Below, one piece after another: positions 9,090 through 27,076 of a stretch of 64,000 bases of DNA. The notes below the pieces were generated by a model. The model worked only from the letters and a program-made list of their open reading frames with translations, had not been told where the DNA came from and ran no database searches. A program made the position numbers and the translations under genes. The first letter of the stretch is position 1. Each line of letters starts with the position of its first letter. Location of the stretch: positions 248,001-312,000 of the forward strand of contig JAXHMJ010000005.1 of NCBI GenBank assembly GCA_034521575.1, read 5' to 3'. Source of the stretch: a candidate division KSB1 bacterium. GTDB lineage: Bacteria; Zhuqueibacterota; Zhuqueibacteria; Residuimicrobiales; Krinioviventaceae.

Positions 9090-10165
9090 TCATTGACTCT
9101 TGACTATAATTTTAGCGGCCTCGAGTCCGGGCGATTTTGCGGTAAGAGTGATAGACCCCGAATCGTCTGACCGCGACCGTACGATCCCCAAAGCCAGTCC
9201 GTTAAAAGCCTTTCGTTTCTGAGACGGAAATGGTGTAAAATCCGTCGGATTGCCGTTATCAGTAGCCACAATCTCGCCGGGACCGGTTACCTCAAAATGA
9301 ATCACATGATCAGCCGTCGGAACCGTCAGACCGTTCTTATCAGCGACTTTGACCGTGACAAAGGCCAGTTCCTTACCATCAGCCCGGATGGTTTTGCGGT
9401 CAACAGAGGCTAGCAGCCGAGCCGGTTTCCCGGCGGTTTGAACCGTATCTTCAGCCCAGGGTTCGCCATTTTTATAGGTAACAACCCGAAGCTCACCGGG
9501 TTGATAAACCACATCATCCCAGCGCAGACGATATTCGTATTGTTTCTTTTCTTTTTTTCCGAGTGAAACACCATTCAGAAACAGCTCGGCTTGATCTCCG
9601 GAAGTAAACGCATGCACCGGTGTGACTTTGCCGATGCGGTCCGGCCAGTTCCAGTGCGGCAGGATATGCGCCATGCGCAGGTCGGGACGCCAGCGCGACT
9701 GATACAGATAATACCGGTCCTTTTTGAATCCCGCCAGATCAATAATGCCAAAATACGAACTGCGTGCTGAGTAAAAAGGCGTCGGTTCTCCCAGATAATC
9801 CCAGCCGCTCCATACAAATCCTCCGGCCACATAGGGATGCCGGTCCAGAGAACGGAACACCTTGTCTGCTGAAGACCCGAAATCGGCGGTATGCAGTTCA
9901 TAGGCACTGACATAATGATGCTCCGGATCACAGCCCAGACTGTCATTGATCGGAGCGCTGATACTTTTATGCACCGGAAACACATAGGTGCCGCGGCTGC
10001 TCAGCGCCGCTGCGTTTTCACTGCTGACAATCACCTTGTCAGGATATTTTTCATGAAACGCCGGATACAGCGGAGACGTGGTGATGCCGTTGAGATGCGA
10101 ATAGGCCGGTGCATTGCGGATTCCCTCTCCCTGATAATTCAGACTGATTAAATCCATGTGTCGGC
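9090..10165 (-). CDS. GH2 beta-galactosidase-like enzyme, C-terminal part (frameshifted)
   Basis: This third piece of a split GH2 gene begins in the right frame with MDLISLNYQGEG. It contains the nucleophile glutamate in VIVSSENAAALSSRGTY, the end of the catalytic barrel (FVWSGWDYLGEPTP) and two C-terminal Ig-like beta-sandwich domains (HAFTSGDQAELFLNG; ADGKELAFVTVKV). Frame with the middle piece is lost near 10160-10165. The YVFPVHKS region and Ig domains resemble secreted GH2 beta-galactosidases of Bacteroidota. Joined, the protein would be around 900 residues. There is no sorting tail. The substrate is probably terminal beta-galactose on xylan or xyloglucan side chains, but GH2 also includes beta-glucuronidases and mannosidases. 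Confidence 0.75.
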
Positions 10166-11105
10166 GAGAACGGCATATCCGGTTTGGCATAGTTCATCGA
10201 TGCGGTCGCGGGCCGGGTGGAATCTTCCTGTTTTAGAATGTTGTGCAGCCGCTGCGCCAGAGCCGCCCCCTCTTTACCGGTGTACTGCTCGCCGACTTCA
10301 TTGCCGAAACTCCACATAATCACCGACGGATGATTGCGGTCGCGGCGGATAAACGCGCGCAGGTCAGGTTCATGCCAGTCCGGAAAGATGAGATGAAAAT
10401 CAAGAGGTGTTTTTTTGCGCGCCCAGATGTCAAATATCTCGTCCACCACCAGAAATCCCATACGGTCCGTCAATTCCAGCAGTTCAGGAGCCGGTGGATT
10501 GTGTGCGGTGCGGATGGCGTTACAACCCATATCGCGAAGTATTTTTAACTGACGTTCGGCAGCACGGATGTTGAACGCCGCACCCAGCGCGCCGAGATCG
10601 TGATGCAGATTAACACCCTTGATGTAGATGTGTTCGCCATTTACAAAAACCCCGGAATCCGGATCAAAACGCAGAGACCGGATACCAAAGCGGGTTATAT
10701 ATTGATCCACAGGCTTTTCATTCTGCCATAATGTCGTGACCGCGGCATAACGGTTGGGACTCTGACCCGGAGGCGGCCCCCACAGTTCGGGGTTTTTTAG
10801 AATCACACTGGATTCAGTTTGTTTGCTCTCTCCTGCCGAAATCGTTATGTCAAGCGGTTCAAAAGCGGTCACAGCTGTTTCGGATGTCTGACCATCAGCA
10901 CTCAGCGGGTAAATCCGGGTCACGGCTTTGACAGCCACATCCGTTTCTGAATCATTATCAACCGTCACAGCTAAATTGACCGTAGCAGATGCGCTTGACA
11001 CATCGGTCGTCGTGATAAACGTGCCCCATTGTCCGACGTGCACGGAATGTGTTCTAGTCAGCCAAACATTGCGGTAAATACCGCCGCCGGAGTACCAGCG
11101 TGAAG
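10160..11105 (-). CDS. GH2 beta-galactosidase-like enzyme, middle part (frameshifted)
   Basis: In the correct frame this piece starts with SRWYSGGGIYRNVWL, the end of the GH2 sugar-binding domain. It continues through the Ig-like domain 2 (ELWGPPPGQSPNRY) into the barrel (VNGEHIYIKGVNLHHD) and ends after the acid/base glutamate in MWSFGNEVGEQ. Its nucleophile is in the downstream piece, so neither piece alone could be active. At the upstream side two shifts (near 11155 and 11105) separate it from the N-terminal part, with a short stretch in a third frame (VVPGTENQLAIRLDN). At the downstream side the frame changes after KPDMPFS near 10162. This is the most fragmented gene in the window. Confidence 0.72.
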
Positions 11106-12023: not shown

Positions 12024-15000
12024 TTATTTGAGTACCATTATCTTTCTGGTATCAACAAATTGTCCTGCCTTCAATTGATAAAAATAGGTGCCGTTTGAGA
12101 GTTCAGAGGCATCAAATGGAATTGTATACGTGCCTGCCTGTTTTTCATCATTGACAAGAGTTGCCACTTTATGGCCAAGAATATTATAAACATCTAAAGT
12201 GACATGCTGATGATTTGGCAGAAAATATTGAATATTGGTTTGAGGATTAAATGGATTCGGATAGTTTTGTTCCAATAGAAAGCACTCGGACGTTTCCGAT
12301 CTATTTTCCACCCCTGTCGGGTCACATAGATTTTCAGCCTCTCCCCCCATTCCTTCCGGGGCTATTCCGGTATTTGAAATAGTGATTTTATCCAGCAGGG
12401 CGCCATCTTCACGATAGCCTATGGTCAGGCTGTGTTCTCCCGGACTCAGCATATGATCATCAAACTTCATCCATTCCCAGCCGCTGGTCACCAAACTGTT
12501 GTACATGATAAAACTTTCGTCGTCCACCCGGACCCAGAACGAATCATCATCATAGGTCGGACAATTAATTCGGGCATATATTGAAAAGCTTCCACTTGTA
12601 TCCACAGAAAAGGGAATAACTATGGTATTCTCACTGCCCGCAGGCGCCTGCTCAAGACTTTCTACACCCGGTTTTACAGTAACATATTTTTCATTGGATG
12701 CCCGTGCATCGCTCAGGATATCCCAATTATCACCCACTGCGGCGCATTCAGCTTCCAGCCAAACCTCTATGTCGTTAACAGGCGTATCATCAAGACACCA
12801 ATCTGCACGCTCCATAAATTCCTTTTGAAAGTCATCGCTCCACATTGAAATCGATGATTTGCCCGGCCCGTCAATATAATGATTCGTCGAGTCATTGCGC
12901 ACATATTGTCCGCCCCAACTTGGTTGCGTTGGATCTTTAGGATCATTTATACCACGATTTGCACTGACCAGATAAAGAAACGAAGGCGTATCTCCCTCAA
13001 TCACACCGTCACCTCCCATAGCTGAGGGAGGGTAGATTGCACACAGGGGGCCGTGGTCGTTAATAATATTTGTTTCAACCCATTCACGACTATCGGCACC
13101 GAACATTCCCTGGTAGGTTGTTCTCGACTCGATTATAAACAGATCGGGGAAATTACTCACAAGCCACTCGTGGGTTGCATCCTGACAAGCAATCAGATAG
13201 ACACGAAGCTTGCTGATAAAAGTGTCAAACTCCTCGCGGCTTTGAGTATTCTGCACCTTCCATATTGCCTGGGCAATCTCCCGCGGACCTCCCCAGACAC
13301 AGATATAAATCGGCCGGGGATCATCTTTGCCTGCAGCAGCAATAATCGCGTCAGAAGCCTCACTGTCCCTGCCTTGTCCGATAATATCGGTCCAGGATTG
13401 CTCATCGCACCCCCACTTTATATTAATATTATGATTATTACCCAATCCCTCATAGGTAACAGCACGCAAATCGTCTGCGGTAGGATACTGTTCATCATAT
13501 TGTCTGAGATTTTCATCAACCAAATCATATTTATCCAGCACAGCCTGAATATTCTTTTTTTCTGCTACCATATCAAATGTGCCTGCTGAAGCAATCAATC
13601 CCTCTATATCAAATTCATTTGCATAAAGTAAAAAGCGAACCATCGATTGTACGTCGTCCGGGTCACTGTTCGTGACCGGAAAGGGCGGAAAATCCGTCGA
13701 TATCATTACCCGCCGCCTGGTTGTATCAAGAACATTTATGATCACACGCCGATATGCATAAAGACCGGGCTGACCTGAATCGTGTAACTCTAAAATGATA
13801 TGAAGCTCTTGTCCATCAGCATCTGAAGGAATCGTTACGATGGGCGTAGCTGTGCTGCTATTTTTGATGGTCAGAGGCCGTCCCTTATAGGTTCCCGCTT
13901 CTTTGTAATAAAGCCATCTGTATGAAAGCGAATGTCCATCAGGATCAGATGAACCCTCTGCGCTAAGCCCGACAGTGGAGCCGGGAAGTGCAGACACGTT
14001 TAAAACATTTCTGGTCGTATCGCCATTTACTACAGCTGCAGGATGGTGGTTGGCTTCTGAATATTGACTTGTTACAGACCAGTCCATTCTTGCCGCAAAA
14101 TCATTATGATACCCGGATGACCAGCGGCGAATACCGCTACTACTTGATGCGTTAGTATACATAAAGTAGGGATCATATACCTGATCCTCCCCGGCCATAC
14201 AAGACATACCCCGAACGGCAGGTTGCTTTTCTCGTCCAAAACGGCCGCCCCAGCCGCCCTGCCATACCTCATCGGGATCGTTAAGTCCATTCGGGAAAAG
14301 ATGCAGAAATGCAGGGGTATCTCCTTCGGTCGCATATTTCCGGTCAGGGTATACAGCTCCAAGGGGACCATGGTTTTGTACATGACTGTCCAGCCATCCG
14401 TCACTTGGCTGCCAGTCATAGACTTGCGTGGCCCTGATATAAGTGATACCGGGAAAATTTTTGGCTATCCATGTGCCTGCATTATCCTGACCCAGAACGT
14501 CATACACACGAATTTTGCTTATAAACTTTTGCAGTTCATCCTCTGAGCGGGTATTCTGAACTTTCCATAGCGCCTGGGCAAGGGTATTACCTCCTCCCCA
14601 AAAACAAATCCAGATAGGACGGGGATCATCTTTGTCAACAGCAGATATGATCAATTCAGAGCCCGGGCTGTCTTTACCATTGCCAACATCGCTCATACCG
14701 TATCCCCGCTGACCCAATACGGAAATAGACTGCAGATATTCGAGAGAAGGGAATTCCGCATCATGTACCTGAAGGTTAGAAACAACCTCTCCATAAGCAT
14801 TGAGTAGATCATTCAACATGTTAATATTGGACTGAGACTTTTTCCAGCAGCCGGTCGTTACAATCAGTCCTTCAACATCGTATTCGTTACTCTGCACCAG
14901 AAAGCGGACCATAGATTGTTCATCGTCCGGATCGGCGCCCAGGTCAGTCATGTTAATGATTCTCGGTTTTTGTTGAATTTCCTGCGCAGCGATCTGAAAA

Positions 15001-15044
15001 ACAGGCACCAGGAATATAAACATAGAGATAAGAATTGTTTTCAT
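12024..15044 (-). CDS. Tandem Sde182 nucleoside-hydrolase-like (DUF1593) protein with CBM-like module and T9SS tail
   Basis: This intact 1006-residue secreted protein has a signal peptide at 1-21. Two DUF1593 (Sde182 nucleoside-hydrolase-like) domains follow at about 25-335 and 446-755, the first opening with TDLGADPDDEQSMVRF and the second with NSDPDDVQSMVRF. Between them (about 340-445) is an Ig-like Sde182 C-terminal domain (SSDPDGHSLSYRWLYY). A beta-rich carbohydrate-binding-like module lies at 760-915 (WLEAECAAVG; DDDSFWVRVD; SGWEWMK; YREDGALLDK), and a T9SS sorting domain ends the chain (EQNYPNPFNP). The single-domain founder of the family was described as cellulose-binding, and its enzymatic role is unclear. 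Here it travels with xylan enzymes, so a hemicellulose-related role is plausible. The tail should send it to the cell surface or outside. Confidence 0.85.
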   Translation of the reverse strand: MKTILISMFIFLVPVFQIAAQEIQQKPRIINMTDLGADPDDEQSMVRFLVQSNEYDVEGLIVTTGCWKKSQSNINMLNDLLNAYGEVVSNLQVHDAEFPSLEYLQSISVLGQRGYGMSDVGNGKDSPGSELIISAVDKDDPRPIWICFWGGGNTLAQALWKVQNTRSEDELQKFISKIRVYDVLGQDNAGTWIAKNFPGITYIRATQVYDWQPSDGWLDSHVQNHGPLGAVYPDRKYATEGDTPAFLHLFPNGLNDPDEVWQGGWGGRFGREKQPAVRGMSCMAGEDQVYDPYFMYTNASSSSGIRRWSSGYHNDFAARMDWSVTSQYSEANHHPAAVVNGDTTRNVLNVSALPGSTVGLSAEGSSDPDGHSLSYRWLYYKEAGTYKGRPLTIKNSSTATPIVTIPSDADGQELHIILELHDSGQPGLYAYRRVIINVLDTTRRRVMISTDFPPFPVTNSDPDDVQSMVRFLLYANEFDIEGLIASAGTFDMVAEKKNIQAVLDKYDLVDENLRQYDEQYPTADDLRAVTYEGLGNNHNINIKWGCDEQSWTDIIGQGRDSEASDAIIAAAGKDDPRPIYICVWGGPREIAQAIWKVQNTQSREEFDTFISKLRVYLIACQDATHEWLVSNFPDLFIIESRTTYQGMFGADSREWVETNIINDHGPLCAIYPPSAMGGDGVIEGDTPSFLYLVSANRGINDPKDPTQPSWGGQYVRNDSTNHYIDGPGKSSISMWSDDFQKEFMERADWCLDDTPVNDIEVWLEAECAAVGDNWDILSDARASNEKYVTVKPGVESLEQAPAGSENTIVIPFSVDTSGSFSIYARINCPTYDDDSFWVRVDDESFIMYNSLVTSGWEWMKFDDHMLSPGEHSLTIGYREDGALLDKITISNTGIAPEGMGGEAENLCDPTGVENRSETSECFLLEQNYPNPFNPQTNIQYFLPNHQHVTLDVYNILGHKVATLVNDEKQAGTYTIPFDASELSNGTYFYQLKAGQFVDTRKIMVLK

Positions 15045-18309: not shown

Positions 18310-19297
18310 TTAGTTTTCAAAGGACCGCATTTGATATTTGGCTTGTAAATGGGTTAGTTTTAATGAAAAACACTCGGACATTTCCAGGCTGTTTCCAACC
18401 CCTGTAGGGTCACACAAATTCTCAACTTCTTTGCCCATACCTTCAGGAAGCTTGCTGCTTGTTGAAATGCATATTTTATCAATCAAAGCTCTATTTTCCC
18501 GATAGCCAATGGCAAGTGTATGATCGCCGGCTGTCAGATTTGAACTGGATAACCTGACCCAATTCCAACCCGATGTGCCTAAATAATTAAACATTTCGTA
18601 CGCGCCGTCATCCACTCGCAACCAAAATGAATCATCATTCCCGGTTGGAAAATTGACACGCGCATATACAAAATAGATTGTGGTGCTGTCTGCCGTAAAA
18701 TTAATAGAAATACGCGCCTCATTTGAAACAGGTGCTTCTGAGAGACTTTCCAAATCCGGCCTGACGGTTACATATTTTCCGTTCGATGCGTTACGATCCG
18801 TATGAATTTCCCAATGGCTTCCCACCGTTTCGCATTCGGGTTCAAAATAAAGTCTTTGAATATCATTATCCAAGCTATCCTCTGGCGAAAAAACCGGATT
18901 GCCGGTCCCCCACCATGCAAACCAGCGGGAGTCATCAATGCAATCAAAAGGATGAACCGTAATATTCGTATTTGCCGTAGTATCACCCAATAAAAATTTA
19001 TCTACAAATGCTTCAATGGCAGATCGTTGACTATTAGGGATACTGCAATGCCCATGCCCACCATCGATATAAAAACCGAATCGGTCCCCGATGCCGAATG
19101 TTTTGTACACTTTGTGCGCGGCTCTTGCGGAAACATAACAAGATGGATTGGCCAGCCATTCATAATCGGTATTGCCCGTCACCAGGAGCGCTCTGGGCGC
19201 GCACATGGCCATCAATTCATGATGATCTTCGGGGAGTTTGGATACATTGAAACGGCCAAACTGAAACATACTTTCTTTGAACCAGTTGTGATCCGTG
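18310..19297 (-). CDS. CE15 glucuronoyl esterase, 3' part (frameshifted) with CBM-like module and degraded T9SS tail
   Basis: This is the second half of a CE15 gene. In the correct frame it begins TDHNWFKESMFQFG and continues through LPEDHHELMAMCAPRALL and the catalytic histidine in DGGHGHCSIP. The shared CBM-like module follows (YFEPECETVG; DDSFWLRVDD; SGWNWVRL; YRENRALIDK). After SECFSLK the sorting domain should start, but the text becomes LTHLQAKYQ and stops. Another frame shows only TNPFTSQISN, a shadow of the NPFNP motif. The tail is therefore truncated and the protein may no longer be recognised by T9SS. The join to the 5' part is near 19297, where one C too many in the coding strand (TACCACGG) breaks the frame. 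Confidence 0.78.
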
Positions 19298-20146
19298 GTA
19301 TGGCAATTTTTCCACATTTCCAAGGGTCTCCGAGACCCGCCAGGCCGGAGCACCGCCGCCCCCGGATTCCTGTGCAATGGTAAGCGCGATCCGCTCGTCC
19401 AATGCACCGGCAAACAGCGCCATTTTGCCGGCATAGGAACAGCCCGTAACAGCGAGGCGCTCGAGGTCTATTGCCAGGCTATCCTGTACAAGCTCCAGAC
19501 CGTCGATCAAACGGCTGACGCCCCAGGCCCAGGCGCTGTATTGGCCTGAATTATCGAGATTCTGGTCCGGATAAAGCCGGTAAAACGGATCAGAATTTGA
19601 CGGACTGGCGCCGGTAAATGGGTTGGCATAGGTAGTCACCTGATCATGGACAAATTCGATGGAAGCAATGTTCCGGCTGGTAAATATATCCACGGGCAGA
19701 CTGCCGGTGCTGCCAAAACCGGGAACCAGCGCCATACCAATGACAGCCGGAAAGGGTCCGTCTCCGGCCGGTAAAGTAATTCGCAAAGCCAATGTCAGCG
19801 TATCCCCGTTCCGTATAACATTTACGCTAACAAGAGTGTCGCCGGTAAAACGTGCCGTGATGCTGTCCGGTCGGTCCGGTTTCAATCCGATTTCGTAATG
19901 TTCAATCTCGGCGCGCCGGCAGCTCCAGCTTGCAAAGGTTGTATCGCGTCCGCTTCCGTCGGACCATACAAACGGATCAGGAAGCGGTTCAACAACCGGA
20001 AGATCTTCAAAAGCGGGTAACGGAGGCGGCTCACACACCGAACCTGTGTTCTCTACATCATAGACCAACGAAATTTTCTGAGCCGACAGGTTGAAAGCAG
20101 TAAAAATGTTCAACACACACAGAAACAGTATTATTATTTTTTTCAT
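19290..20146 (-). CDS. CE15 glucuronoyl esterase, 5' part (frameshifted)
   Basis: After a signal peptide (MKKIIILFLCVLNIFTAF), this piece holds the N-terminal half of an alpha/beta-hydrolase of family CE15. These enzymes cut the ester between 4-O-methyl-glucuronic acid on xylan and lignin alcohols. The nucleophile serine lies in VTGCSYAGKMALF near residue 236, and the acid in AQESGGGGAPAWRVSE is also typical. The WAWGVSRLIDGLE motif precedes the nucleophile. The frame is correct to about 19297 and then reads nonsense to 19217. Together with the 3' part all three catalytic elements are present. It lies between GH30 (glucuronoxylanase type) and GH43, which fits action on glucuronoxylan. Confidence 0.82.
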
Positions 20147-20173: not shown

Positions 20174-22138
20174 TTATTGTAAGACAAACGTCGTTATACT
20201 TTGCGGTTCCAATGTATATTTGAATAATCCATCTTTAACATCCACCGGATTTCCCTGTTCACAGTTCTTGTTTTCCGATGTTGTATAGGGTGTAAAAGTT
20301 GTTGTTATTATATTATTGTTGAACCTGAACGCATTTTCTTTTTCAGAAGAAGCGGAATTGACAGCAACAATAACCATTTTAGATGATGCCGGGTGCTTAT
20401 AAGCCGTCACATCAACATCCCGCAAAACAGGGGCGAGGTCACCCTCAACCCGAAAAAAGCCGGGATGAATAAACCTGGAAAACTGTGATAAAACATAACC
20501 TTTTTTGGTCACCTCTCCTTTCGCCGGATAATATTCCATGGGATCTTGAGGATTCGCGGCTCTGTTTCCATCACCTATAGGACCGTAATACCTGATCATC
20601 GTCCACCATACATAGGCACTCATATCAGCCTGCATGACATTAGTGATATTATGTGCAAGTTCCATAGCCCAATACATATTATTGCCCGAATTATTTTCAC
20701 CCATCAAATACTCGGTCATCCATACCTCTTTTCCTTTTTCTTTGGCTAGCGGATATTCGAATAAACCGCCGCCGTAAATATGTCCACAGATAATATCTGT
20801 ATTCGCACAGGCAGTCGAATCATTCAGAATGAGATCAGAATATGAGCGACCAAAGTTGGAAACCTCCGGAGACATGACATAGGTCCCTTTTATTGCACCG
20901 GCATAATCGCGCATGAACGTAAACATTTCCTGTGGAGACCAGTTTGTCCAATCCCCCATTTCTGGTTCATTCTGAACAGATAATCCATAAATAGATACGC
21001 CATTTTTTTCCATAAATTTTACAAAAGAATTTAGATGGTCGGCATACTCGGCATATTTATCCAGCTTGATTCGTGTTTCACCGTCTCTGTATTCAGTCAG
21101 ATGGTCCGGGGCGTACCAGGGTGCGGCAATAATTTTTGCTCCCATGTCCTGGGCTTTCCTTGTAGAAGGAATCCATTTGGCCCATAGATTACTATCCGCT
21201 TCAACCGTTATCCTGTAAATCGAAAGTCCGATCTGCCCTACATCCATCCCAAAAGCGCTTTCAATCTCAGAGTCGGTCGCTGTCGGCAAATACCATGGAC
21301 TCGCAGCCCCATATCCTTGAATAATTTGATGGAGGCTATCAAAATCAAATGTTGCCAGGGGTGTATATTCGACATAAAAATTTATAGTCGTATCATTTTG
21401 AATGGTCACAGGCTCCATCTCTTCGGGAACCAGCAAAGGCGAAGTTGCTGGCGTGTTCTCAACCCTGATTGCAAAGGCATTCGCGTCTACCAGATGTGTT
21501 TTCCTCAATGCGGGATGAAAATTTTGCGAGAGAACAACAGAATGACTCCCACTCGGATCCAGGGTCATCTTTTTGACAATCGACCCTTTATCAGATTGAA
21601 TCTTGTAAAAATAAACCCCGTTCGCCACTCGATTGCCAAACTCATCCCGGCCATCCCAGACGATGTGATGTGCGCCGACTTGCTTTGCTCCAGTTACAAA
21701 TCTGCGGACTCTTCTGCCAAGTACATCATAAATTGTGATTGTTACATCAGATTGCACATTTAACTGATACAATATCGCCGTTGAAGAAGAAATGGATTTG
21801 GGATAGTTTTGTGATAACTCGAATGTTTCCGGGATATTCTCGGCTTCCGATACATTCGATATGACGATATCAATCCGGTATCGGCCTGAATTATCTGTTA
21901 AAGCCGATATTTTTTTCGTGGTGTCTGCCATGTCAATAAATGTGACAGAGGCATTGCGTATGGGAATCCGGTTTGAAGATATTTTTCCGTTGATTGTAAT
22001 GGTTTCGCTGTACACCCCGGAAAACAGCAATATCTGAATGAGAATAAAATACTTTACAGGTTGACAGGTTAAAGAGCCATCAGTTGATCCATTTACATTA
22101 AAGGTAACCCGATTTCGCTTGAAAAGCTGAGTGAACAT
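20174..22138 (-). CDS. GH30 glucuronoxylanase-like enzyme with internal sorting-like domain
   Basis: This intact 654-residue protein starts at an ATG preceded by AAAGGA. A long n-region leads into a hydrophobic signal (YFILIQILLFSGVYS). A short carboxypeptidase-regulatory-like repeat (TINGKISSNRIPIRNASV) occupies about 45-100. Next, at about 105-190, is a FlgD/T9SS-type beta-sandwich (ELSQNYPKS; TIYDVLGRRVR; NGVYFYKI), unusually placed before the catalytic domain instead of at the C-terminus. The GH30 barrel spans about 265-654, with acid/base glutamate in SVQNEPEM and nucleophile in WMTEYLMG. The overall fit is to GH30 subfamily 8-type xylanases, which need glucuronic acid side chains, though that specificity is inferred. 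A 28-base gap separates it from CE15, suggesting coupled expression. Confidence 0.83.
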   Translation of the reverse strand: MFTQLFKRNRVTFNVNGSTDGSLTCQPVKYFILIQILLFSGVYSETITINGKISSNRIPIRNASVTFIDMADTTKKISALTDNSGRYRIDIVISNVSEAENIPETFELSQNYPKSISSSTAILYQLNVQSDVTITIYDVLGRRVRRFVTGAKQVGAHHIVWDGRDEFGNRVANGVYFYKIQSDKGSIVKKMTLDPSGSHSVVLSQNFHPALRKTHLVDANAFAIRVENTPATSPLLVPEEMEPVTIQNDTTINFYVEYTPLATFDFDSLHQIIQGYGAASPWYLPTATDSEIESAFGMDVGQIGLSIYRITVEADSNLWAKWIPSTRKAQDMGAKIIAAPWYAPDHLTEYRDGETRIKLDKYAEYADHLNSFVKFMEKNGVSIYGLSVQNEPEMGDWTNWSPQEMFTFMRDYAGAIKGTYVMSPEVSNFGRSYSDLILNDSTACANTDIICGHIYGGGLFEYPLAKEKGKEVWMTEYLMGENNSGNNMYWAMELAHNITNVMQADMSAYVWWTMIRYYGPIGDGNRAANPQDPMEYYPAKGEVTKKGYVLSQFSRFIHPGFFRVEGDLAPVLRDVDVTAYKHPASSKMVIVAVNSASSEKENAFRFNNNIITTTFTPYTTSENKNCEQGNPVDVKDGLFKYTLEPQSITTFVLQ

Positions 22139-24181: not shown

Positions 24182-26989
24182 TTATTTTATCAAGGTACAT
24201 TTTTTAACCGCACTGTAGAGTCCGGCTGTCATTTTGTAAAAATAAACACCGGACGCGAGCCCGGATGCATCCCAGTTGATGGAATGAGTTCCGGCGTTCT
24301 GCGTTTCATCCACCAGCGTTGCAACTTTACGGCCCGTCATATCATAAACCGCAATGTGCACCTGCGAGCTTTTCGGCAAAGTGTATTGTATTTGTGTCAC
24401 CGGATTGAAGGGATTGGGATAATTCTGGATCAAACTGTAATCCGATATGATATGTTGACTGTTTCTATCCGCGACAGCAACGGTCTGCGCTGTATCGACC
24501 AGCATGATGGTTCCAAAATGATCCGCATTGATCCAGTGGTTGTTCGAATCCTGATGGGCAACCGTCACCGACCCGAAAAAATGATCCCGGGTTTTGGGAG
24601 ACTCGTCCGGATCATCATTGTCGCAATAGGCCATGGAAAATCCGATCATTTTATTTTCAGTCAGATTGACCCGCGACGCTTCCGGCTGATCAATATCGAA
24701 ATCATCGCTGTACATCTTTAGTGAAAATTCATAAATGTTTTTATGACTGTACTGTTTCACAGCAAATTCGGGGAAATGATCCGAGTAATTTACAGTTTGA
24801 TTCCATTCATACTGATCCATCGCAACCAATTCGTGTGTCGTGTTTCCATCACCCGGGAAATTCACATTCATATGATAGGCAAACGCATTTTCCGAATTCT
24901 GAGCGCCCTGGCCCTGTTGATGCAGTCCGCCGGAATAGTCTTCATCCACAAACAGTTCCAGAACATCATATTTGTAATAGCCGCCGTCTCCGACCTCATA
25001 TCCATCCACAAGGACATCGTCTTTAATGTCCACCAAAAAATAAACCCGGTTGCTGTCGCTGTTCCAGATACATTTATACCGGCCGTTAAAATCATCGGAC
25101 AGCACAAAGGCATCATAGGGCATCCAGGTTTGTCCGATTTCCTGCCAGTCTGTTTGCCGCCAGCATGCATCGTCAGCATTGCCGTCGATGACAGGCACAT
25201 CCGTCACATGATGAACAAGTACCGTATCATCCTGGGTATCATTGCTGGCATCCCGGGTTACCAGCTCGATCCCCGAATCCAGTCCCGATATCTCTGAATA
25301 CTGTTTATCAACCGGGTTATTCCAGTGCTCATGAACACCCAGAGACGAAATGGGAGTGCCGTCATTTTCCGGATCAGATATTAAACCTTCCGGCCAGTTG
25401 GCTGAATCCGCCGCCTGGTGTAAATAATCATCCGCGCCCTGCATTTGCGCATAGCTCAGGTCCGGATGCCGTTCCCGGGTATACTCGTTTCTGAGAAAAT
25501 CATATCCCACCGATTCAATGGCCACCTGATCCTGGGAAATAAAAATAGAGGAACTCCAGTCATGATTAAAAGGCGCGGTTTTCCATTTGGAGGGCTGAAT
25601 GACTTCATGTCCTGCGGACCACAAAGCATCCATCAGATAAATCAAAGCCTTTTTTCGGATAAATTCCCATCCCATCAGATCAACCTGAACCCGGTACATG
25701 CCATAATCATAGCGTTCGTTTTCAGGTATTCTGCCGGGTTCATCAGGACACACCAGCCCCATATGCAGATGTTTCGCTCCATCCCGGGTATGCGATCCAA
25801 AATGATTTTTCGCAAACATGGTTACACCGGCTCGCCGATGTCCCTTGAGTGTGGGCACATTGATTAAATACTCACAGTCCTCAAAAATCTTGTAAAAATA
25901 ATCCTGATAAACCGGATCACCATCCCCCATATTCGTCCAGGTTCCGGTTCTGAGCACCGATCCGCGGTCCGAATAATAAATAGCAGAATCTCCTGTTTCA
26001 ACGGTCTCCCGTCCGGCATCGGTTCGATGATGATCCAGAACATGAATATCCGGAAACTCGGGTAGCCAAAGATCCAAATCCGCCTTGTACAGGTGTTTCA
26101 TGGGATCCCCCACATAGATATTCGCCTGATCAATACCAACCTCATTGACCAAATGCCGCAGCAAAGATAAAATCAGCTGAGGAGATGTTTCCGAGGTTCC
26201 AAAGTACGTATTCTGTCCCCGCGTAAAATCATCTGAAATATTTGCGTTCCAGCCGCCCATGCCCCAGGCGCTGGTTCGATTCACTTTGATAAATATTTTT
26301 TCATCCTGATCAAATTGATATCCAATGTCACCTTTGCCTCTTTTTGCATTATTGATTTTGAATATCTTGTCCCAGGCTCTGACAATATCGGTCTCTCCGG
26401 TTATTTCTTTTACCGCTTTTGACAGCATATCATCGACCACCCCCTGATCATTATGCTCAGGCTTGAACCAGCCGTCGCCATCACAAATGGCTTGATTGGT
26501 GAGTTCCTCATTGGTTGCATCGGCATTGTGTATCCATACCACGCGTCCGGGATAATAGCCTTGCGCATTTCCCATGGGAATGTTGGGTTGCTGCTGGATG
26601 GTGATGTACTCGGCATAACCGGGCTGACTTGTGCTTGACACCATGACACCCAACCCGATAAAGAAAACTATGGACAGAAAGGATATTAATACTATGCTTG
26701 TTTTTTCTTTATGGAACAATGATTTTATTTTATGAAATGATAAAACAGACGTTAAAAGACCGCCGAGAAAAACAAACAATGAACCGGAGATCGGAATAGC
26801 AACTTTCATACAGGGATAACTCAATCGGCTGGGTTTTGGAATTAACCGAATCAAAACCCATAATGTTGCCAGGACTCCCCAGAGGGGGAAACCCAGGTAA
26901 TAATACCAGTTCTTTTTAAATTTTAAACCTTTAATTTTCCCGGTTCTATCGCAGGTTCTGAAAAATTTTTGTTTCCATCCTGAATCCAT
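24182..26989 (-). CDS. Membrane-segment DUF362 protein with CBM9-like domain and T9SS tail
   Basis: This intact 935-residue protein starts at an ATG after AAGGAG. Three hydrophobic segments lie at about 28-50, 62-85 and 93-118. A DUF362-type domain (about 200-520) shows IKVNRTSAWGMGG, YLINVPTLKGHRRAG and FAKNHFGSH. A CBM9-like sugar-binding domain (about 598-800; VPVIDGNADDACW, then DDVLVDGYEVGDGGYYKYDVLELFVDE in two adjacent stretches) follows, and a T9SS domain (QNYPNPFNP; GVYFYKMTAG) ends the chain. DUF362 proteins have no firmly established activity. Several transmembrane helices before a sorting tail is unusual, because T9SS cargo normally carries one cleavable signal. The third segment (VMVSSTSQPGYA) might act as that signal. 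The CBM9-like part suggests contact with plant polysaccharide, but the function is unknown to me. Confidence 0.72.
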   Translation of the reverse strand: MDSGWKQKFFRTCDRTGKIKGLKFKKNWYYYLGFPLWGVLATLWVLIRLIPKPSRLSYPCMKVAIPISGSLFVFLGGLLTSVLSFHKIKSLFHKEKTSIVLISFLSIVFFIGLGVMVSSTSQPGYAEYITIQQQPNIPMGNAQGYYPGRVVWIHNADATNEELTNQAICDGDGWFKPEHNDQGVVDDMLSKAVKEITGETDIVRAWDKIFKINNAKRGKGDIGYQFDQDEKIFIKVNRTSAWGMGGWNANISDDFTRGQNTYFGTSETSPQLILSLLRHLVNEVGIDQANIYVGDPMKHLYKADLDLWLPEFPDIHVLDHHRTDAGRETVETGDSAIYYSDRGSVLRTGTWTNMGDGDPVYQDYFYKIFEDCEYLINVPTLKGHRRAGVTMFAKNHFGSHTRDGAKHLHMGLVCPDEPGRIPENERYDYGMYRVQVDLMGWEFIRKKALIYLMDALWSAGHEVIQPSKWKTAPFNHDWSSSIFISQDQVAIESVGYDFLRNEYTRERHPDLSYAQMQGADDYLHQAADSANWPEGLISDPENDGTPISSLGVHEHWNNPVDKQYSEISGLDSGIELVTRDASNDTQDDTVLVHHVTDVPVIDGNADDACWRQTDWQEIGQTWMPYDAFVLSDDFNGRYKCIWNSDSNRVYFLVDIKDDVLVDGYEVGDGGYYKYDVLELFVDEDYSGGLHQQGQGAQNSENAFAYHMNVNFPGDGNTTHELVAMDQYEWNQTVNYSDHFPEFAVKQYSHKNIYEFSLKMYSDDFDIDQPEASRVNLTENKMIGFSMAYCDNDDPDESPKTRDHFFGSVTVAHQDSNNHWINADHFGTIMLVDTAQTVAVADRNSQHIISDYSLIQNYPNPFNPVTQIQYTLPKSSQVHIAVYDMTGRKVATLVDETQNAGTHSINWDASGLASGVYFYKMTAGLYSAVKKCTLIK

Positions 26990-27076
26990 GTTCTCTCCTT
27001 TTTTTTAATAGAATGATATCCAATTGTAAACCAGCATTCTGGTCCTTCAAAACTTTTTAACAAAGGGGCGAAAAGG

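Follow-up and report, generated by a model that had tools for sequence, protein, structure and literature searches.

Within the window, by which we mean the whole 64,000-nucleotide stretch of a candidate division KSB1 genome analysed here, one minus-strand gene would, on a reading that we hold to be somewhat better than even, encode a secreted LarA-fold DUF362-CBM9 enzyme that carries a membrane leader and an internal signal peptide and is exported by the type IX secretion system (T9SS). A sequence-only reading of the same DNA had offered an undescribed surface enzyme as one possible product, and our comparisons of homologues, conserved residues and predicted sorting signals support a surface enzyme as the likely one.

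Domain architecture and its recurrence

The gene is a normal 935-codon open reading frame with an ATG and a strong ribosome-binding site (Table 1). Pfam placed DUF362 at residues 357-497 (E 3.7e-9, 37.4 bits against a curated cut-off of 24), CBM9_1 at residues 601-832 (E 4.1e-18, 66.4 bits against 23.4) and Por_Secre_tail at residues 857-931 (E 9.5e-13, above its curated cut-off), and NCBIfam concurred on the tail. The architecture claimed in the sequence-only reading, with three membrane segments ahead of DUF362, a CBM9-like domain and a T9SS tail, is thus real, as judged by Pfam, hydropathy and the same order of domains in homologues. That reading had also raised the possibility that the N-terminal helices reflect a misplaced start; this is not so, since homologues are conserved up to residue 6, and the candidate alternative start, a TTG near residue 91, was rejected on that conservation and because the ATG as annotated is preceded by a strong ribosome-binding site.

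Table 1 Features of the DUF362-CBM9 gene and its predicted product (positions in the window)
Feature	Position	Strand	Evidence
Whole gene (935 aa: leader, DUF362, CBM9, T9SS type A tail)	24182..26989	-	ORF calling, Pfam, NCBIfam; full layout kept in L028-L032
Shine-Dalgarno AGGAGAG ahead of ATG	26993..26999	-	Sequence
Hydrophobic helix 1 (residues about 30-50)	26840..26902	-	Hydropathy, conservation
Near-invariant loop R48-x-x-P-K-P-x-R-x-x-Y-P-C60...P66, helix 1 to helix 2	26792..26848	-	Conservation
Hydrophobic helix 2 (residues about 65-84)	26738..26797	-	Hydropathy, conservation
Hydrophobic helix 3 (residues about 97-120), proposed internal signal-peptide core	26630..26701	-	Hydropathy, site conservation, L244
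Predicted signal peptidase I site G124-Y125-A126 / E127	26612..26620	-	[AVSTGIL]xA past helix 3 in 51/51 homologues
Mature DUF362 (predicted LarA-fold) domain, residues 127-590	25220..26611	-	Pfam, hhalign, Foldseek
H384-x9-K394-x14-H409, placed like LarA His174/Lys184/His200	25763..25840	-	50/50 invariant, motif statistics, PMC11770544
CBM9-like domain, residues 601-832; W819 aligned to binding Trp175 of TmXyn10A CBM9-2	24494..25189	-	Pfam, PDB profile search
T9SS type A sorting domain, residues 857-931	24197..24421	-	Pfam, NCBIfam; SprA homologue in genome

The search for homologues with the same order of domains that had been proposed alongside that reading retrieved five proteins with the full layout, namely L028 (79% identity to the window protein, in a MAG that carries the label Candidatus Neomarinimicrobiota), L029, L030 and L031 (~55%) and L032 (42%). 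By sequence comparison, then, the gene is not a chance chimera, since relatives in other phyla share the whole domain order. The genome behind L035 encodes a further DUF362-CBM9 fusion of 1016 aa. L035 and L036 encode the CBM9 protein separately, in the gene immediately upstream of the one for DUF362; in L034 a gene comprising a DUF362 fragment and CBM9 lies upstream. The majority of relatives in the window's phylum retain the leader, DUF362 and the tail without CBM9. Searches of plasmid and viral sequence collections found no homologues.

Leader, putative internal signal peptide and export

Hydrophobicity peaks at residues 32-50, 65-83 and 99-117, and the same three segments were seen in all 24 homologues examined, with the loop RVIPKPSRxxYPC almost invariant across 53 sequences. 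Past helix 3 the sequence becomes variable save for a small residue at -3 and an alanine at -1, the signal peptidase I rule. A site of the form [AVSTGIL]xA follows helix 3 in 51 of the 51 usable homologues, compared with 29.4 expected from shuffling the same stretch (nominal P 5e-15, which is too strong because the sequences are related). In the homologue L244, from another genome, an unrelated gene lies upstream, then come AAGGAGGT and a TTG start, and in place of all three helices there is a plain signal peptide. It ends in LYA at the equivalent position, after which the domain begins with the conserved PGRVVW. Helix 3 therefore looks, on the simplest reading of these sequences, like an internal signal peptide, and the cleavage after the third segment suggested earlier gains support from both the conserved site and L244. 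The earlier concern that several helices are hard to reconcile with T9SS cargo is not borne out, and neither is any necessity for an envelope-spanning protein, since an internal signal peptide would explain export.

Helices 1 and 2 constitute a conserved leader around the near-invariant loop; in the model proposed here the two-helix leader with its invariant YPC loop would remain in the membrane and probably aid maturation of the enzyme (cofactor or folding) before release. Across 82 genomes of the window's phylum and 395 of a relative's phylum this leader was found on DUF362 proteins only, and the idea that it is a general module was rejected, as every match inspected was either a DUF362 protein or a fragment that was broken or lay at a contig end. 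The YPC leader is also present on L141, a divergent DUF362 protein. The leader thus appears to track the DUF362 domain and not T9SS, given its restriction to DUF362 proteins and its presence in L238, which has no T9SS tail. Loop 1, which is expected to be periplasmic, carries ~4 net positive charges and fits badly with that position under the positive-inside rule.

A T9SS tail is present on nearly all homologues with a complete C-terminus, and the window's genome encodes a homologue of SprA, the T9SS component searched for. Reviews describe an N-terminal Sec signal peptide on every T9SS effector (PMC10202324, PMC12618676). Among T9SS-tailed DUF362 proteins we found single Sec-like leaders (L207-L213) as well as Tat-like leaders (L215-L217, L219, L220, L222, L224); the combination of a Tat-like leader and a T9SS tail on DUF362 proteins goes without mention in those two reviews, and our literature search found no paper that speaks of type IX secretion together with an internal signal peptide. 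T9SS-tailed proteins need not, it would seem, have a simple N-terminal signal peptide, as in this lineage their leaders are Sec-like, Tat-like or membrane-embedded. This diversity bears on the prediction of secreted proteins and on the ways in which cargo with a cofactor may be readied for T9SS.

We propose that the protein would be inserted into the inner membrane through helices 1 and 2, with the third helix acting as an internal signal peptide, and that signal peptidase I would cut after Ala126 to free the mature DUF362-CBM9-tail protein into the periplasm, from where T9SS, to judge by the tail and SprA, would take it to the cell surface. Membrane insertion, cleavage and surface delivery together are predicted with good confidence.

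The DUF362 domain and its likeness to LarA

The domain itself is genuine DUF362 by profile comparison: hhalign against ordinary DUF362 gave a probability of 98.3% (E 1.2e-14), and divergent family members match DUF362 at positions 1-200 with E values down to 2e-16. Our literature search found no DUF362 protein with a tested activity, and the family is widespread. DUF362 and LarA families share Pfam clan CL0471 (PMC11770544), and one protein of the window's genome matches both profiles (Lar_N E 1.6e-47, DUF362 E 8e-6). An AlphaFold2 prediction of residues 131-590 built from nine sequences yielded a weak model (mean pLDDT 54, pTM 0.67), for which Foldseek nevertheless returned the malate racemase Mar2 (7s91) on top (E 1.6e-3, probability 0.99, with a TM-score of only ~0.3) and as the sole match below E 0.1 among solved structures, the runner-up having E 0.12. 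A first model that included the leader (pLDDT 52) was set aside as Foldseek returned nothing usable for it. Direct hhalign comparison of the family profile with LarA was not significant (1.5% probability), and a PDB sequence search with the family profile gave no matches; the same search with an ordinary-DUF362 profile was discarded, because among the matches listed at least 60 were to ferredoxin-type domains at the profile's C-terminus.

The acid/base residues of LarA are His108 and His174; its nickel-pincer nucleotide is held by Lys184 and Arg75, and His200 coordinates the nickel (PMC11770544). H384, K394 and H409 of the window protein are invariant in 50 of 50 family members, and the spacing of H384 and K394 (10) equals that of His174 and Lys184, while K394 and H409 lie 15 apart against 16 in LarA, a match that is positional and not structural. 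The pattern H-x9-K-x12-16-H occurs in 44 of 50 family members, 19 of 20 LarA-like proteins and 27 of 32 ordinary DUF362 proteins (5.4, 2.4 and 1.7, respectively, after shuffling). K235 and H555 are also strictly invariant across divergent members, and D295 nearly so. Counterparts of the LarA partners R75 and His108 were not identified in alignments of the window protein. Taken together, the fold search and the invariant residues make it fairly probable that the domain is a LarA-fold enzyme with H384, K394 and H409 at the catalytic, cofactor and nickel-ligand places of LarA; H384 would then be the catalytic histidine, K394 the lysine that holds the cofactor and H409 the histidine that binds nickel. 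Such residues, aligned with the LarA active site, would narrow DUF362 to a short list of testable chemistries.

The cofactor may differ from that of LarA. The window's genome (96% complete) encodes four LarA-like (Lar_N) proteins despite having no detectable LarB, LarE or LarC, in that LarC was not found and LarB and LarE stayed below their cut-offs (42 of 175 bits and 37.5 of 150 bits, respectively), which makes LarA's own cofactor doubtful for the window protein. Among 30 relatives, LarA-like proteins occur in all 30 and LarC in only six.

Polysaccharide context, rival explanations and known systems

The gene sits in a long, mostly minus-strand run of genes for arabinoglucuronoxylan breakdown, with several GH43, GH30, GH3, GH10, GH127, GH9, arabinofuranosidase-type C-termini, a CE15-like (glucuronoyl-esterase-like) protein and a GDSL esterase. 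In raw counts, five of the seven CBM9-fused copies adjoin glycoside hydrolases (the window protein, L028, L029, L031 and L033, the last visible only from residue 573 onward) and L030 and L032 do not, whereas among the 25 commonest families in 110 neighbours of unfused copies the only glycoside hydrolases were GH20, GH88 and GH5, with two proteins each. The sequence-only reading would have been weakened by homologues lying consistently outside polysaccharide loci, and this holds in part: unfused copies are mostly outside such loci and CBM9-fused copies mostly beside glycoside hydrolases. As glycoside hydrolases adjoin mostly the fused copies, the core DUF362 enzyme does not appear to be tied to polysaccharides, while its CBM9 branch does.

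A glucuronoyl-esterase-like gene (18310-20146) and a GH2-like gene (9090-11043) are each apparently split over two overlapping frames, and a frame change interrupts a DUF362 paralogue that lies elsewhere in the genome (G000:C3:177898-179597), all of which look like assembly or sequencing frame errors. A GH30-like xylanase (20174-22138) has a FlgD_ig/T9SS-tail-like domain near its N-terminus (residues 112-191) and not at its C-terminus, and L028:13022-15100 has a similar matching stretch at residues 147-226. Also in the xylan cluster is a T9SS-tailed protein (12024-15044) that is Sde182-like, cellulose-binding and nucleoside-hydrolase-like.

A profile of ten CBM9 copies matched only CBM9-2 of Thermotoga Xyn10A (1i82) in the PDB (E 0.0026). 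W819, aligned to the sugar-clamp Trp175, is invariant in 10 of 10 copies; the position of Trp71 is not Trp, with Tyr residues nearby, and sugar binding has been shown for a CBM9 in which Tyr replaces that clamp Trp (PMC8280721). The xylan breakdown around the gene and the CBM9 itself suggest substrates for DUF362. As a working guess of low probability, CBM9 might keep the enzyme on plant polysaccharide chain ends, where its target might be a group of hydroxy-acid type (uronic or aldonic acid) that the xylan enzymes encoded alongside release or expose. A wider proposal, which we regard as a long shot, is that YPC-leader DUF362 proteins form a class of LarA-type isomerases that work outside the cell on the sugar-acid ends of plant polysaccharides. 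Each would mature at the inner membrane through its own two-helix leader, which has the invariant Cys and is cleaved off, and the cofactor would either differ from the nickel-pincer nucleotide or be made by another route.

Export could be read otherwise, with all three helices uncleaved and anchoring the protein in the inner membrane for a periplasmic function, the T9SS tail being inherited but unused, or with the protein bridging the envelope. The helices and loop do rank among the most conserved parts, and leader-bearing members without a tail, such as L238 and probably L143, indicate that serving T9SS is not what the leader is for. We consider such an anchor unlikely, however, in view of the 51 of 51 signal-peptidase-like sites, the signal peptide that stands alone in L244, the plain Sec or Tat leaders that secreted DUF362 relatives combine with the same tail, and the CBM9 and polysaccharide locus, which point to the outside.

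Two further explanations concern the DUF362 domain. It might be no LarA-type catalyst and instead a metal or iron-sulphur related binding or electron-transfer domain that CBM9 merely places on its substrate, which would suit the genes directly upstream in L030 (a Fer4_5 membrane protein) and L031 (redoxin/thioredoxin), the three Cytochrome_C7 neighbours beside unfused copies and the frequency of DUF362 in iron-sulphur proteins (PMC5742341). Such redox neighbours are inconsistent, though, Pfam and NCBIfam report no 4Fe-4S motif in the window protein, and the invariant residues match LarA active-site positions, so that we rate this explanation as rather doubtful. Quite improbable, in our estimate, is an inactive LarA-fold scaffold that binds sugars or surfaces with varying accessory partners (fused CBM9, propeller, lipoprotein). 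The partner does vary: a beta-propeller protein lies next to the DUF362 gene in ~8 loci (L032, L034, L037, L038, L042, L044, L051, L056; Reg_prop or SMP-30/gluconolactonase type, most of them T9SS-tailed), and a small lipoprotein-like gene (~230 aa) lies directly downstream of an unfused DUF362 gene in 10 loci (L055, L124, L126-L128, L130, L132-L134, L138; mostly with a lipobox-like Cys). The strict invariance of H384, K394, H409, K235 and H555, together with near-invariant D295, nonetheless suggests a working active site.

The reading that we prefer, a secreted LarA-fold DUF362-CBM9 enzyme, can be set against several known systems. With the LarA superfamily (LarA1; Mar2, PDB 7s91) the window protein has in common the Pfam clan, the top structural match and near-identical His/Lys/His spacing, but it is predicted to be exported, is fused to CBM9 and comes from a genome without detectable LarB, LarE or LarC, and its LarA-like activity is a prediction. 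Like T9SS type A cargo it has a C-terminal sorting domain and a genome with a SprA homologue, and differs in that its signal peptide is apparently internal, behind a two-helix module; in L244 the signal peptide is N-terminal. Its CBM9 is homologous to that of Thermotoga maritima Xyn10A and keeps the binding Trp175 position, whereas the Trp71 position is non-Trp and the partner is DUF362 instead of a xylanase. Similar in composition are the DUF362-CBM9-dockerin proteins reported in 2017 from beaver and moose gut metagenomes and a DUF362-CBM9 protein of Sorangium cellulosum (PMC5742341), which likewise join DUF362 to CBM9 in the secreted enzyme systems of lignocellulose degraders; the gut metagenome proteins carry a dockerin where the window protein has a T9SS tail. 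The DUF362-CBM9 pairing is therefore not new, while the leader, the predicted LarA-type site and the T9SS version mark a new variant.
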